Below are positions 32,290 through 37,573 of a DNA stretch of 64,000 nt, in pieces (the first letter of the stretch is position 1; the number at the start of each line of letters is the position of its first letter). Made by a program: the position numbers and the translations under genes. The notes beneath the pieces were generated by a model that worked only from the letters and a program-made list of their open reading frames with translations, had not been told where the DNA came from and did no database searches. The DNA comes from a bacterium (GTDB lineage Bacteria; UBA8248). The stretch lies in NCBI GenBank assembly GCA_022828125.1, contig JAJEJD010000005.1:1-64000 (forward strand), in the 5' to 3' direction.

Positions 32290-33515
32290 GTCGTCTCCTT
32301 CCCCGGGTTATCGGGTATCTGCTTTTTGCCTCTTAATTGTACTGACGTCGAAACGGCCAGCCAGCTCATGATCGCAAAACAAACATAGCTCGTATTGAGG
32401 CTCATCACCTCGGCGAGCCAGCCGCCCAGCAGTGGGGCGAGAAAACTCAAGCCGTGGCAGGTATAGATAAAGCCGACGGATGAAGCCAGAATGTCTTTCT
32501 CCGAGAAATCCGCCGCCGCGGTGAGGATAATCGGGCTCACGAACCCGACGACGCCGGTCAATGCGGATAGAATATAAAAACCCGTTTGCCACCCCATGAA
32601 CGGCAGAGCGAAAACGAAGACTCCCAGCAGCGTCATGGGCCAGAACAGGGCCGCTCTCGCGCCCCAGCGATCGTAGAGAATTCCCATCAAGGGTTTGGCC
32701 AACATGCCGAAACCGAAATGGAGCGACACGGCCACACCGATTTGCGCCGTGCTCATCCCCAGCTTCGAGGTCGCCAGCAGGGGGAGAAAACCAATCATTC
32801 CCTTGGTGCACATGCCGCGCAAGGTGTAGGTCGCCGCCAGCCACACCGTGTTCCTGTTCTCCACGACCCGCTTTACGATGGAGAAAACCTTCAATTCCGC
32901 CGCTTTCCCCGCCTCACGTTCGCTCTCGCTCTTTCCCTCGACAAACCGCGCGTTCACCAGGGGGAGGAGCGCAATGGCGGGGGCCGCGCAGGCGCCGATC
33001 GCCGCGCGCCAGCCGGCCGCCGCCGCCACGGCCGCCTGGGCCAGCGGAAGAATGCTGGTTCCGAGGTTGCCGCCCAGGCTGTGCCACGAAATGGCGAATG
33101 CGCGGTCGCGCTCGAAGCGATTCGCCGCCAGCGCGGTTCCACAAGGGTGGTAGACGGAATTTCCCGCGCCCGCCAGAAACGCCAGGACGCACATCGGCAA
33201 GAAGCGGCTCACCCACATCATCGCGATGAAAGACGCGGCGGAGAGGCCCATGCCCACCAGGAGCATCAGCTTTCTTCTGCCCGTATTATCCGCCAGTATC
33301 GAGAGCGGGTACTGGAAGATCATCTGCCCCAGACTGAAAGTACTGAGCAAAGCCCCCACTTCGAAGGGAGACAGGTCGAGGTCCATGACGATGAGCGCGA
33401 GAACGGGAACGAGCATGTTGGAGAACCCGTCGCTCAACCCGTGGGTCAAGCCGATGACGCTCAGATCGAAATAATCGCCGAGTCTCCAGGCCTGCTTTTC
33501 CGCATGAGAGGTCAT
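32286..33515 (-). CDS. MFS transporter
   Basis: MTSHAEKQAWRLGDYFDLSVIGLTHGLSDGF..., start ATG 33515; upstream part of listed ORF is out-of-frame reading of the P1 peptidase gene. Confidence 0.9.
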   Translation of the reverse strand: MTSHAEKQAWRLGDYFDLSVIGLTHGLSDGFSNMLVPVLALIVMDLDLSPFEVGALLSTFSLGQMIFQYPLSILADNTGRRKLMLLVGMGLSAASFIAMMWVSRFLPMCVLAFLAGAGNSVYHPCGTALAANRFERDRAFAISWHSLGGNLGTSILPLAQAAVAAAAGWRAAIGACAAPAIALLPLVNARFVEGKSESEREAGKAAELKVFSIVKRVVENRNTVWLAATYTLRGMCTKGMIGFLPLLATSKLGMSTAQIGVAVSLHFGFGMLAKPLMGILYDRWGARAALFWPMTLLGVFVFALPFMGWQTGFYILSALTGVVGFVSPIILTAAADFSEKDILASSVGFIYTCHGLSFLAPLLGGWLAEVMSLNTSYVCFAIMSWLAVSTSVQLRGKKQIPDNPGKETT

Positions 33516-34471
33516 TACGATGCGGGCAGGTCTCGCCAGGCAGGGAGGATACCTCCGCCGTCGGCCTCCATCACGGCGCGGCAAATCGCGTGGCCGACGG
33601 CTTCGATCGCCGCCGCACCGACGACGTCGAGGGCCACCTCGCGTTCCCCGTGGGAGAGGGCGAAGACCATGTCTCCATCCACAGTGGTGTAGGATGGGCG
33701 GACGGTGCGGATGAGTCCGTTCGCCGCCAACTGGGCGAGTTTGTGCGTTTCGGTTTTCGCGAGGCGGGCATTCGTCGCCACGGCGACCAGGGTCGTGTTC
33801 TCGGAAGTGTTGGAGAATCCCTCGAAGGGCCTTCCTTGCACTCTCAGGTGCTCTTCCGTATCCACGATGCCCTTCTCGGGGGGCATCGCTCTGGGGCCGG
33901 CAACGGGCTTTCCCGTCCCCGGCTCGTACACGCCGCCAAAGGCGTTCACCGCAGCGATTGCGCCAACGACGCCGCCCCCCGGCAGTTTCATGCTCGCCGT
34001 GCCGAGACCGCCTTTCATGGCGCGCTCCTGGCCGAAGAGTTTCCCGATCGTGGCGCCCATGCCCGCTCCCACGCTCCCCTGGGGACCTTCTTCGTTCGAT
34101 GCCGCCTCGCACGCGGCGCGCCCCATCGCGGCGTCGGGGCGAACCCTGCCGTCGCCGAAATGGAGATCGAACAGCACGCCGGCGGCGACCGTGGGCACGT
34201 TGAAGCGTCCGGTGGGAAACCCCCTGCCCTGTTCTTCCAGGAAAGCCATGACGCCATCGGCAGAAGCCAGGCCGAACGCGCTGCCTCCGGTCAAGACGAT
34301 GGCATCCACGCCCCCGACCAGGTGCTCGGCGCGCAGTGCATCCATGCCGCGCGTGGCCGTCGCCGTGCCGCGCAACTCGCACGCCCCGACGGTTCCGGGG
34401 GGGCAAAGCACCACGGATACGCCCGTTCTCGCCTCATCATCTTGCGCGTGGCCGAGATAAAAGCCCGGCAC
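33515..34471 (-). CDS. P1 family peptidase (DmpA/L-aminopeptidase type)
   Basis: GACELRGTATATRGMD, VDAIVLTGGSAFGLASADGVM, TTLVAVATNARLAK. Confidence 0.92.
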   Translation of the reverse strand: MPGFYLGHAQDDEARTGVSVVLCPPGTVGACELRGTATATRGMDALRAEHLVGGVDAIVLTGGSAFGLASADGVMAFLEEQGRGFPTGRFNVPTVAAGVLFDLHFGDGRVRPDAAMGRAACEAASNEEGPQGSVGAGMGATIGKLFGQERAMKGGLGTASMKLPGGGVVGAIAAVNAFGGVYEPGTGKPVAGPRAMPPEKGIVDTEEHLRVQGRPFEGFSNTSENTTLVAVATNARLAKTETHKLAQLAANGLIRTVRPSYTTVDGDMVFALSHGEREVALDVVGAAAIEAVGHAICRAVMEADGGGILPAWRDLPAS

Positions 34472-34548: not shown

Positions 34549-35205
34549 CTAGTCCGCGACAGGAAGCTCGCCGGGCGGGCGACCGGGCAGATCGCCGGTC
34601 TCCAGGATGCTGTCGATAACGTATCTGTATTGTTCCGCAGGCACCGCCCCGACCATCACCGCTTTGTCGTTCACGACGACGGAGGGGATGCCCGTTATCC
34701 CCAAGTTCGTGGCCTCCATGTATTCCTTGACGGCCTTTTCCTTCAAGCCCCCGCTCTCGAGAGCGTCGCGGTATCGGTCCATGTCCAGCCCGCTTTCCTC
34801 GGCCACGTCGCTCACCACTACCGGGTCCGAGATGTTGCGGTTATCCGTGAAGAAGGCAGCCAGAAGGTTGTCGTGGAATTTCTCCCACTCCTCAGGGCCC
34901 TGGAATCTCGCCGCCAGCCCGGCTTCGGCCGAGGGCATCGAGCAGTTCGGGAACTCCTCCTCGCTCTCCCACGGGGTGAAATCGCCGGAATCGGGCTGTG
35001 AGTCCGCGTTATTCCAGTGGTTTCTGCGGTAATCGTTGAATACCGCCGTGGGGTCCGGCTCGGGCCTCAGCATGAAGACCCTGTACTGGATGTCTACTTT
35101 ATCGCCGTATTCTTCCTTAATCTTCTTCAGGCGCACGGCCGAGTTGAAGCACCAGGGTCACAAGAAATCGCTGTAAACGGTGAACCGCACGGGGGCGTTA
35201 TCCAT
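34549..35205 (-). CDS. DsbA-family (FrnE-like) oxidoreductase, predicted selenoprotein with UPWC redox motif (TGA codon at 35158-35160)
   Basis: Manual translation: MDNAPVRFTVYSDFL-[TGA]-PWCFNSAVRLKKIKEEYGDKVDIQYRVFMLRPEP...GITGIPSVVVND; TGA sits at the first Cys of CPWC in frame. Confidence 0.82.
35125..35149 (-). promoter_or_regulatory. Candidate bacterial SECIS element
   Basis: CUUCA-ACUC-GGC-[CGUGC]-GCC-UGAAG hairpin; apical loop begins about 20 nt after the TGA with G at loop position 2. Confidence 0.6.
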
Positions 35206-35261
35206 TCTCTCTCTCCTTTGGCTCCGGGAGGATGCGACGGAGCCCGTTGATGAACGGCAGT

Positions 35262-36149
35262 CTATAGTCTCATGTGCCGCATATGCACCTTTACCTTCTC
35301 GCCGATGCCCGCTTCCAGGAACTGCGCGGCGTTTCCTTCGGGCACGAAGATCTCCAGCCGCGTCCAGCTGTTGAACTGCGCCCCGAGGTCGCCCGCCTTC
35401 ACCGCCTGATAGTATTCGCTCACCCCGTTAATCACGTGGCCGCCGATTTCGATGATCGGCAAGTGCGCGGCGTCGTCCTCGCCGAAATCGAAACGCCAGA
35501 ACGTCGTGGTGTCGATGTTCGTCACGAGGTTCCCGTAATGATCGACGTATATCACCTCGCCGGTGATGGTGTCGGCGTCCTCGAAGTCCACCGGGGGAAA
35601 ATCGAAGTGAACCGGGTCGGTGATGACGGAGCCGAAATCCTCGGGCGGAACCCCGCAGGAGAGATGCCCCGCAACGGGCGCGAAAATGTCCCTGCCGTGG
35701 AAAGTGGAACTCACCTCGTTCAGGAAAAACGCGTCTTCTTCGAGTTCTCTCGTCCACATGTAGAGCGGGTCGTCATACACGCAGGAGAACAGGCCGTTGT
35801 CCGGCCCCACGAAGTAATAGTTTTCCGTGGCGGCCATGACTCCCCTCCGGCTGCTGCCCACGCCCGGGTCGACCACCGCCACGTGAATCGTCCCGCGCGG
35901 AAAATAATGCGCCGATGAACCCAGGATCAACGACGCGGCCTTAACGTCGTACGGCTTGACGGAATGGGAGATGTCGACGATGCGGGCCACCGGGTTTACT
36001 GCCATCACGACGCCCTTCATCACGCCGACGTAGTGCTCATCGCTGCCGAAATCCGTGAGGAGCGTGACGGTCGGCTGCGCGTCGCTTTCCTCTTCGAAAT
36101 CGGACGCGCCCTCGTGAAAAGGATTCGGGCGCGATTGATCGTCCGTCAT
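35262..36149 (-). CDS. SAM hydroxide adenosyltransferase (DUF62 / SAM hydrolase family)
   Basis: VTLLTDFGSDEHYVGVMKGVVMAVNPVARIVDISHSV...VVDPGVGSSRR...GPDNGLFS. Confidence 0.93.
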   Translation of the reverse strand: MTDDQSRPNPFHEGASDFEEESDAQPTVTLLTDFGSDEHYVGVMKGVVMAVNPVARIVDISHSVKPYDVKAASLILGSSAHYFPRGTIHVAVVDPGVGSSRRGVMAATENYYFVGPDNGLFSCVYDDPLYMWTRELEEDAFFLNEVSSTFHGRDIFAPVAGHLSCGVPPEDFGSVITDPVHFDFPPVDFEDADTITGEVIYVDHYGNLVTNIDTTTFWRFDFGEDDAAHLPIIEIGGHVINGVSEYYQAVKAGDLGAQFNSWTRLEIFVPEGNAAQFLEAGIGEKVKVHMRHMRL

Positions 36150-37573
36150 GACGCAAACTCCCCCCATAAGGCATCCGACCTTGCGGCGATGCGGGATAAT
36201 CCATTCTTCTCTGGCAAGGGCGCGAGCCGCACCGGAACCGTGCGGCCTATCCATTCGTCGGGCCCGGAAGCCAACACGCGAATGTAATTGTCCGACAAGC
36301 CGGTGAGCAGGCCGTCTTCCGCGCGGCGGCTCTCGAACAGCACCTCCGTTTCCCGCCCCGTTTGCGAGGAGACGAACGCCGCCCATTTCCTGCGCCCCAA
36401 CTCCTGCAACGCGCGCGCGCGTTTTTTCTGCTCATTTTTTGGAATTTGCCCCGGCATCCCGATGGCCGCCGTTCCCTCGCGCGGTGAATACGGAAAAACG
36501 TGCAGATAGGCCAGCGGCGATTCCCGCACCCATTCCATGGTTCGTTCGAACGCCTCTTTGCTCTCGTCGGGGAAACCGACGATGAAATCCCCGCCGAGGC
36601 AGGCCCCGTCAATTTTCTTCGCGATTTCATCGAACCTGCTCGCGCAGCGCGCGGCGGTGTAATTGCGGTTCATCGCCGCGAGCGTTTCATCGTCCCCGCT
36701 CTGGACGGGTATGTGGAAGTGGCGGCAGACGTACCTTCCCTCGTTCGATGAACTCGCACCGTACGCCTCGCTGGCGACAACGCGGATGAGCTCGCGCGTA
36801 AATTCCCCCGGTTCCACGGAGGAGAGCCTGAGGCGGAAAGTTCTTTCTATTCCGAGCAACCGGCTCACCAGGCGGCTCAGGGTGCTGCGCGGCTTGATGT
36901 CCCTGCCGTATGCGCCGAGATGAATCCCGGTGAGCACCAGTTCCTCGTGACCACCCGAAAGCAGCGTATCGGCGTGTTCCACGCATGAATCCACTTCCAG
37001 AGAGCGGCTCGCCCCGCGCGCGATGGTCGTCGCGCAAAAAGAGCAGGAAAAGTTGCACCCGTCCTGCACCTTGAGGTAGGCCCGCGTCCGGCTGCCGAAC
37101 TGGGGCAGGACGACGCTCTCGATATCAAGACTTTCCTCGATTGGTGAAACCCGCATCTCGGGCTTTTCATCTCTCTCATGGGGCTTCGCCAGTTCCTCGT
37201 GAAGATGTAGCTTTTCCCTGTTACCGAGCAGGAGATCGACTTCGGGGATCAGCATCCTCTCCGCGTTCGCCTGGGCGGAGCATCCTGCAATGACGACCCG
37301 GGCGTCCGCGCCGCCCGTCCGCCGTGCCCTGCGCGCCAGCCGTCTGCCCTCCCGGTCGGCCTCCGCCGTGACCGTACAACTGTTGACGACGTAGACGTCC
37401 GCCTCCCTGCTGAAAGGAACCAGCTCATATCCGGCTCCGGCGCACAAGTGCTTCATCGCTTCGCCCTCGGCGTGATTGAGCTTGCATCCCAGGTTCGCCA
37501 GGGCGAGACGCAGGGGTTTTGCGCTTGCGCTCTTCACGGCTTTGCTCGTCTCGTTCATGCGGGCTACCTTCAA
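36146..37573 (-). CDS. mtaB: Radical SAM tRNA methylthiotransferase MtaB family
   Basis: NLGCKLNHAEGE, VNSCTVT, CNFSCSFCATTIARG, IPVQSGDDETLAAMNRNYTA, DFIVGFPDE. Confidence 0.92.
   Translation of the reverse strand: MKVARMNETSKAVKSASAKPLRLALANLGCKLNHAEGEAMKHLCAGAGYELVPFSREADVYVVNSCTVTAEADREGRRLARRARRTGGADARVVIAGCSAQANAERMLIPEVDLLLGNREKLHLHEELAKPHERDEKPEMRVSPIEESLDIESVVLPQFGSRTRAYLKVQDGCNFSCSFCATTIARGASRSLEVDSCVEHADTLLSGGHEELVLTGIHLGAYGRDIKPRSTLSRLVSRLLGIERTFRLRLSSVEPGEFTRELIRVVASEAYGASSSNEGRYVCRHFHIPVQSGDDETLAAMNRNYTAARCASRFDEIAKKIDGACLGGDFIVGFPDESKEAFERTMEWVRESPLAYLHVFPYSPREGTAAIGMPGQIPKNEQKKRARALQELGRRKWAAFVSSQTGRETEVLFESRRAEDGLLTGLSDNYIRVLASGPDEWIGRTVPVRLAPLPEKNGLSRIAARSDALWGEFAS

Follow-up and report, generated by a model that had tools for sequence, protein, structure and literature searches.

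A conserved in-frame UGA at the active site of a DsbA/FrnE-like gene in a little-studied bacterial phylum

Does the TGA at the active-site position of a DsbA/FrnE-like gene encode selenocysteine (Sec), or does it mark an error, a dead gene or another use of the codon? The question is raised by a minus-strand locus in the window, by which we mean the whole 64,000-nucleotide stretch of contig JAJEJD010000005.1 analysed here. An earlier note had read 34549..35205 (-) as a hidden selenoprotein gene, and there is, in our opinion, a very high probability that it is one. The features on which this answer is built are collected in Table 1.

Table 1. Features of the Sec-containing DsbA/FrnE-like locus and its paralogues; positions are those of the window unless a contig of the host genome (G000) is given
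Feature	Position	Strand	Basis or remark
Sec-containing DsbA/FrnE-like gene	34549..35205	(-)	218 aa, U at residue 16
TGA codon 16, read as Sec, first Cys of CxxC (UPWC)	35158..35160	(-)	orthologues and distant homologues
Shine-Dalgarno-like AAAGGAGAGAGAGA just 5' of the ATG	35206..35219	(-)	similar GGAG-containing leaders in most orthologues
cis-Pro region GITGIPSVVV, residues 169-178	34672..34701	(-)	T171, G172 and P174 invariant in the family alignment
Candidate bacterial SECIS stem-loop, apical loop CGUGC at 35137-35133	35122..35149	(-)	synonymous constraint, pairing, energies
Upstream neighbour	35262..36386	(-)	conserved at most orthologous loci
Downstream neighbour	33515..34471	(-)	conserved at all orthologous loci tested
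UAWC DsbA-like paralogue (L064)	G000 C21:191038-191592		TGA at active-site Cys
UPWA DsbA-like paralogue (L065)	G000 C23:300074-300568		TGA at active-site Cys
UPFC DsbA-like paralogue (L066)	G000 C23:276274-276798		TGA at active-site Cys
UPYA DsbA-like paralogue (L067)	G000 C23:249425-249877		TGA at active-site Cys

Reading frame, family and active site

When the minus-strand frame was re-read, the upstream ATG at 35205 was found, as the earlier note had claimed, behind a ribosome-binding site, AAAGGAGAGAGAGA. The frame that it opens, MDNAPVRFTVYSDFL-TGA-PWCFNSAVRLKK, ends with a TAG at 34549, and its sole in-frame stop is the TGA at 35160-35158 (codon 16), which does fall on the first Cys of CPWC and leaves the remaining frame intact. 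The cis-Pro region GITGIPSV, likewise placed in frame by that note, was located at residues 169-176. One detail had to be amended: the internal start given by the ORF caller at 35136 is a GTG, not an ATG. This GTG is codon 24 of the full-length gene and sits within the predicted SECIS loop. Automatic annotation truncates the gene, and the catalytic residue falls in the lost part; the gene model is corrected here.

The proposed DsbA/FrnE-like family and fold are borne out by several comparisons. With U16 taken as Cys for scoring, the protein reaches 81.2 bits against Pfam DSBA (PF01323; gathering cut-off 25.6). Among PDB sequences, the protein comes closest to FrnE of Deinococcus radiodurans (PDB 5cnw, 5co3, 5coh, 5xwh; E 4e-12), which has a similar fold and CPWC in the same column but differs in carrying Cys in place of Sec and in its longer chain of 260 residues. 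In an AlphaFold model (mean pLDDT 77), residue 16 immediately precedes the first helix, which begins at residue 17, such that UPWC (residues 16-19) lies at the start of helix 1; TGIP is invariant at T, G and P. Foldseek matched the model to YjbH, FrnE, DsbA and kappa GST structures. YjbH, kappa-class GST and 2-hydroxychromene-2-carboxylate isomerase-like proteins share the DsbA-type fold (TM about 0.6) but are remote in sequence and have other known functions. A match to an NCBIfam selenolipoprotein family was rejected, being C-terminal only and far under the cut-off of that family.

Column 16 is occupied by Cys in distant homologues from Myxococcota (L033; CPWC) and from the alphaproteobacteria Roseibium (CPFC) and Paracoccus (CPYC). 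Plasmid-borne homologues are distant as well (about 30% identity), and the two inspected carry Cys. At this column, for which the earlier note expected Cys or Sec, the orthologues have TGA and the distant homologues Cys.

Conservation of the UGA and the Sec machinery

Of the phylum's 18 genomes in the genome collection, 17 have an orthologue, and the genome in which none was found is 70% complete. Codon 16 is TGA in every one of the 18 orthologous genes (17 genomes, 6 genera, 62-100% identity), a degree of conservation that puts the in-frame TGA beyond chance. TGA likewise stands here in six close MAGs, 91-96% identical and five of them labelled Nitrospinota/Nitrospinae, and in a Tectomicrobia MAG, 70% identical. 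The eighteenth of the orthologous genes is a second, partial copy in the relative G017 (L052; G017:C209:3-449); this UPWC copy, which also has the TGA, is more divergent and is cut by the contig end. Gene order is kept at the orthologous loci: a first neighbour, the 35262..36386-type gene, the Sec-DsbA gene and the 33515..34471-type gene. We take the neighbours to be, in this order, MiaB-like, DUF62-like (probably a SAM hydroxide adenosyltransferase) and, on the far side of the Sec-DsbA gene, an S58-like peptidase (probably of the P1/S58 family).

A search for the Sec machinery, which the earlier note had called for, found all of it in the host genome (97% complete, 3.4% contaminated). SelA (509 bits), SelB (384 bits), SelD (335 bits) and tRNA-Sec (UCA; 75.9 bits, called tRNA-SeC (tca) by ARAGORN) lie on the same contig, C30, with SelB about 1 kb downstream of SelA. 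Eleven genomes of the phylum are at least 90% complete and no more than 5% contaminated; every one of them carries both tRNA-Sec and SelA. The selD gene (G000:C30:4116-5078; L020, L069) itself has an in-frame TGA (AGGUGS), which indicates a Sec-containing SelD. One relative, bin107 (L029), originates from the sponge Aplysina aerophoba. In a study of that sponge, SelA and SelB occurred together in most symbiont bins and were absent from most related references (PMC5649159).

These data bear directly on the other ways in which the TGA might be explained. A sequencing or assembly error, in which TGC or TGT of an ordinary Cys protein was read as TGA, is so improbable as to be negligible: the same TGA stands in 18 genes of 17 genomes, separately published MAGs among them, and its recurrence in independent assemblies rules the error out. 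Very little probability attaches to a pseudogene, or to a gene cut by a real stop and translated anew from GTG 35136. The ORF caller does report that start, but no Shine-Dalgarno-like sequence was found in the sequence before codon 24, and the restart product would be devoid of beta-strand 1 and of both active-site residues. Moreover, in 6 genera UPWC and the N-terminal strand are conserved on either side of the stop, no further lesion is seen, and the genome holds the full Sec machinery. Decay in relatives, which the earlier note had named as a refutation, is not seen; the homologues are intact. That UGA has been reassigned, or is read through as another residue such as Trp, Gly or Cys, would by itself fit the open frame, yet we consider it no more credible than a restart. 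TGA terminates 17 of the 37 long ORFs of the window (a rough mechanical count) and is therefore an ordinary stop; the genome has tRNA-Sec, SelA and SelB; and both here and in four paralogues it is the catalytic Cys column on which TGA falls.

The conserved TGA, the Sec machinery and the intact homologues support the earlier claim of a functional selenoprotein in a host that decodes UGA as Sec. In our judgement the gene product is, with high probability, a thiol-disulfide oxidoreductase of DsbA/FrnE type that has a single domain and resides in the cytoplasm, with UGA 16 decoded as Sec, Sec16 attacking and Cys19 resolving. The cytoplasmic location is suggested by the absence of a visible signal peptide. 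From the gene, its conserved UGA, the Sec machinery, the family and fold, and the RNA-level constraint after the UGA, all observed here, we infer Sec insertion itself, the catalytic cycle, substrate, reductant and biochemical role as follows. SelB and Sec-tRNA(UCA) would decode codon 16 as Sec, aided by a stem-loop just 3'. The attacking residue would be Sec16, which sits where the first thioredoxin-fold helix begins, close to the cis-proline loop, and may react with substrate disulfides or oxidants. Resolution of the product by Cys19 would give a Sec-Cys selenenylsulfide, to be reduced in turn by a cellular reductant.

RNA-level constraint and the candidate SECIS

The region right after the UGA is under constraint at the RNA level. 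In codons 22-28, synonymous differences amount to 15% of the codon-usage expectation, the lowest stretch of the gene, compared with 98% at codons 29-40 and 79% at codons 41-205. None of 100,000 random draws gave a value as low, nor did any of 2,000 shuffles in which every window was scanned; these permutations take codons to be exchangeable and ignore the tree.

A SECIS downstream of the UGA is a moderately supported candidate. Its upper stem, which contains a bulged U, pairs 19-23 with 29-34 (the numbering starts at the U of UGA) and carries the loop CGUGC, which lies 17 to 20 nt or more past the UGA according to stem closure (20 nt in the structure counted). The upper-stem pairs hold in 98.8% of the cells of the orthologue alignment; covariation in this stem is no higher than in shuffles, because almost nothing in it varies. 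The hairpin has an energy of -6.6 kcal/mol as an isolated 28-nt segment and -11.2 kcal/mol in a 54-nt fold. Across orthologues, energies range from -3.6 to -7.8 kcal/mol, most missing the published -7.5 kcal/mol (isolated segment), and the best 54-nt fold is no more stable than shuffles (z 0.05). The RNAalifold consensus favours another, weak hairpin over the candidate. An Rfam search around the UGA returned nothing relevant; to our knowledge, bacterial SECIS elements are poorly covered there. The CGUGC loop and 20-nt spacing agree with the published bSECIS model, the energy being marginal (PMC13188914).

It should be noted that the most divergent orthologue (L046, genome G012) has a perfect 7-bp stem with a GUUC loop instead of the common hairpin, which leaves G25 and U26 invariant in both. 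The 7-bp register was also tried as a general structure and fails in the other orthologues. This hairpin is a natural variant for testing what the SelB of the phylum recognises.

Paralogues, known relatives and significance

Five of the six DSBA-domain genes in the genome have TGA at the active-site position, with the motifs UPWC (34549..35205), UAWC, UPFC, UPWA and UPYA; the last two are without the second Cys. For the UAWC and UPWA paralogues the TGA is retained in other genera. In each of the four paralogues, a SECIS-like hairpin with its loop starting 20-21 nt past the UGA is among the best candidates. These four genes and selD have hairpins that start 17-21 nt past the UGA and carry G in the first two positions of the loop (in the UPFC gene, such a hairpin is the second-ranked candidate); by a simple pair score, they are more stable than that of the UPWC gene. 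A codon-model screen of the window for further in-frame TGA genes was too noisy to be of use, ranking the known gene 16th. The DsbA-type set of the phylum may be unusually selenium-based, a diversified selenol redox network of differing chemistries with the UPWC protein as one member; we put this forward tentatively, at slightly less than even chances. On the same tentative footing, the sites would be dithiol-like in UPWC, UAWC and UPFC and would have a lone Sec in UPWA and UPYA. The GOS survey includes a DsbA form with lone Sec, UxxV (PMC2398784); the UPWA and UPYA proteins are thus not new in kind.

The UPWC protein shares with the known Sec-containing DsbA-like protein (COG2761/PF01323) the DSBA domain, Sec for the first Cys of CxxC, widespread Cys homologues and a SECIS-like hairpin past the UGA; COG2761 is, we assume, the group that contains FrnE. 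A 2005 description of such UxxC proteins, from the Sargasso Sea, placed them under COG2761 (PMC1088965), and Sec-DsbA was named "DsbA 1" in the 2008 GOS survey (PMC2398784) and "DsbA-like protein form 1" in a 2026 review (PMC13188914). Unlike the published Sec-DsbA, known here by description, the present one belongs to a phylum labelled Nitrospinota/Tectomicrobia, where Sec is kept by every orthologue found. In the literature covered, which included few subscription papers, no link of selenoproteins to Nitrospinae/Nitrospinota was found, and annotation elsewhere is possible. The protein is one more member, from a lineage that has received little study, of a selenoprotein family already known: the Sec-DsbA (UxxC) family has been recognised since 2005, and its retention across a whole poorly studied phylum is the addition made here. 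With it, an uncultured and partly sponge-associated phylum joins those bacteria that decode Sec and have several DsbA-like selenoproteins. Its paralogues, some UxxC and others with U alone, form a clean set with which to ask what a DsbA-type active site gains from Sec.
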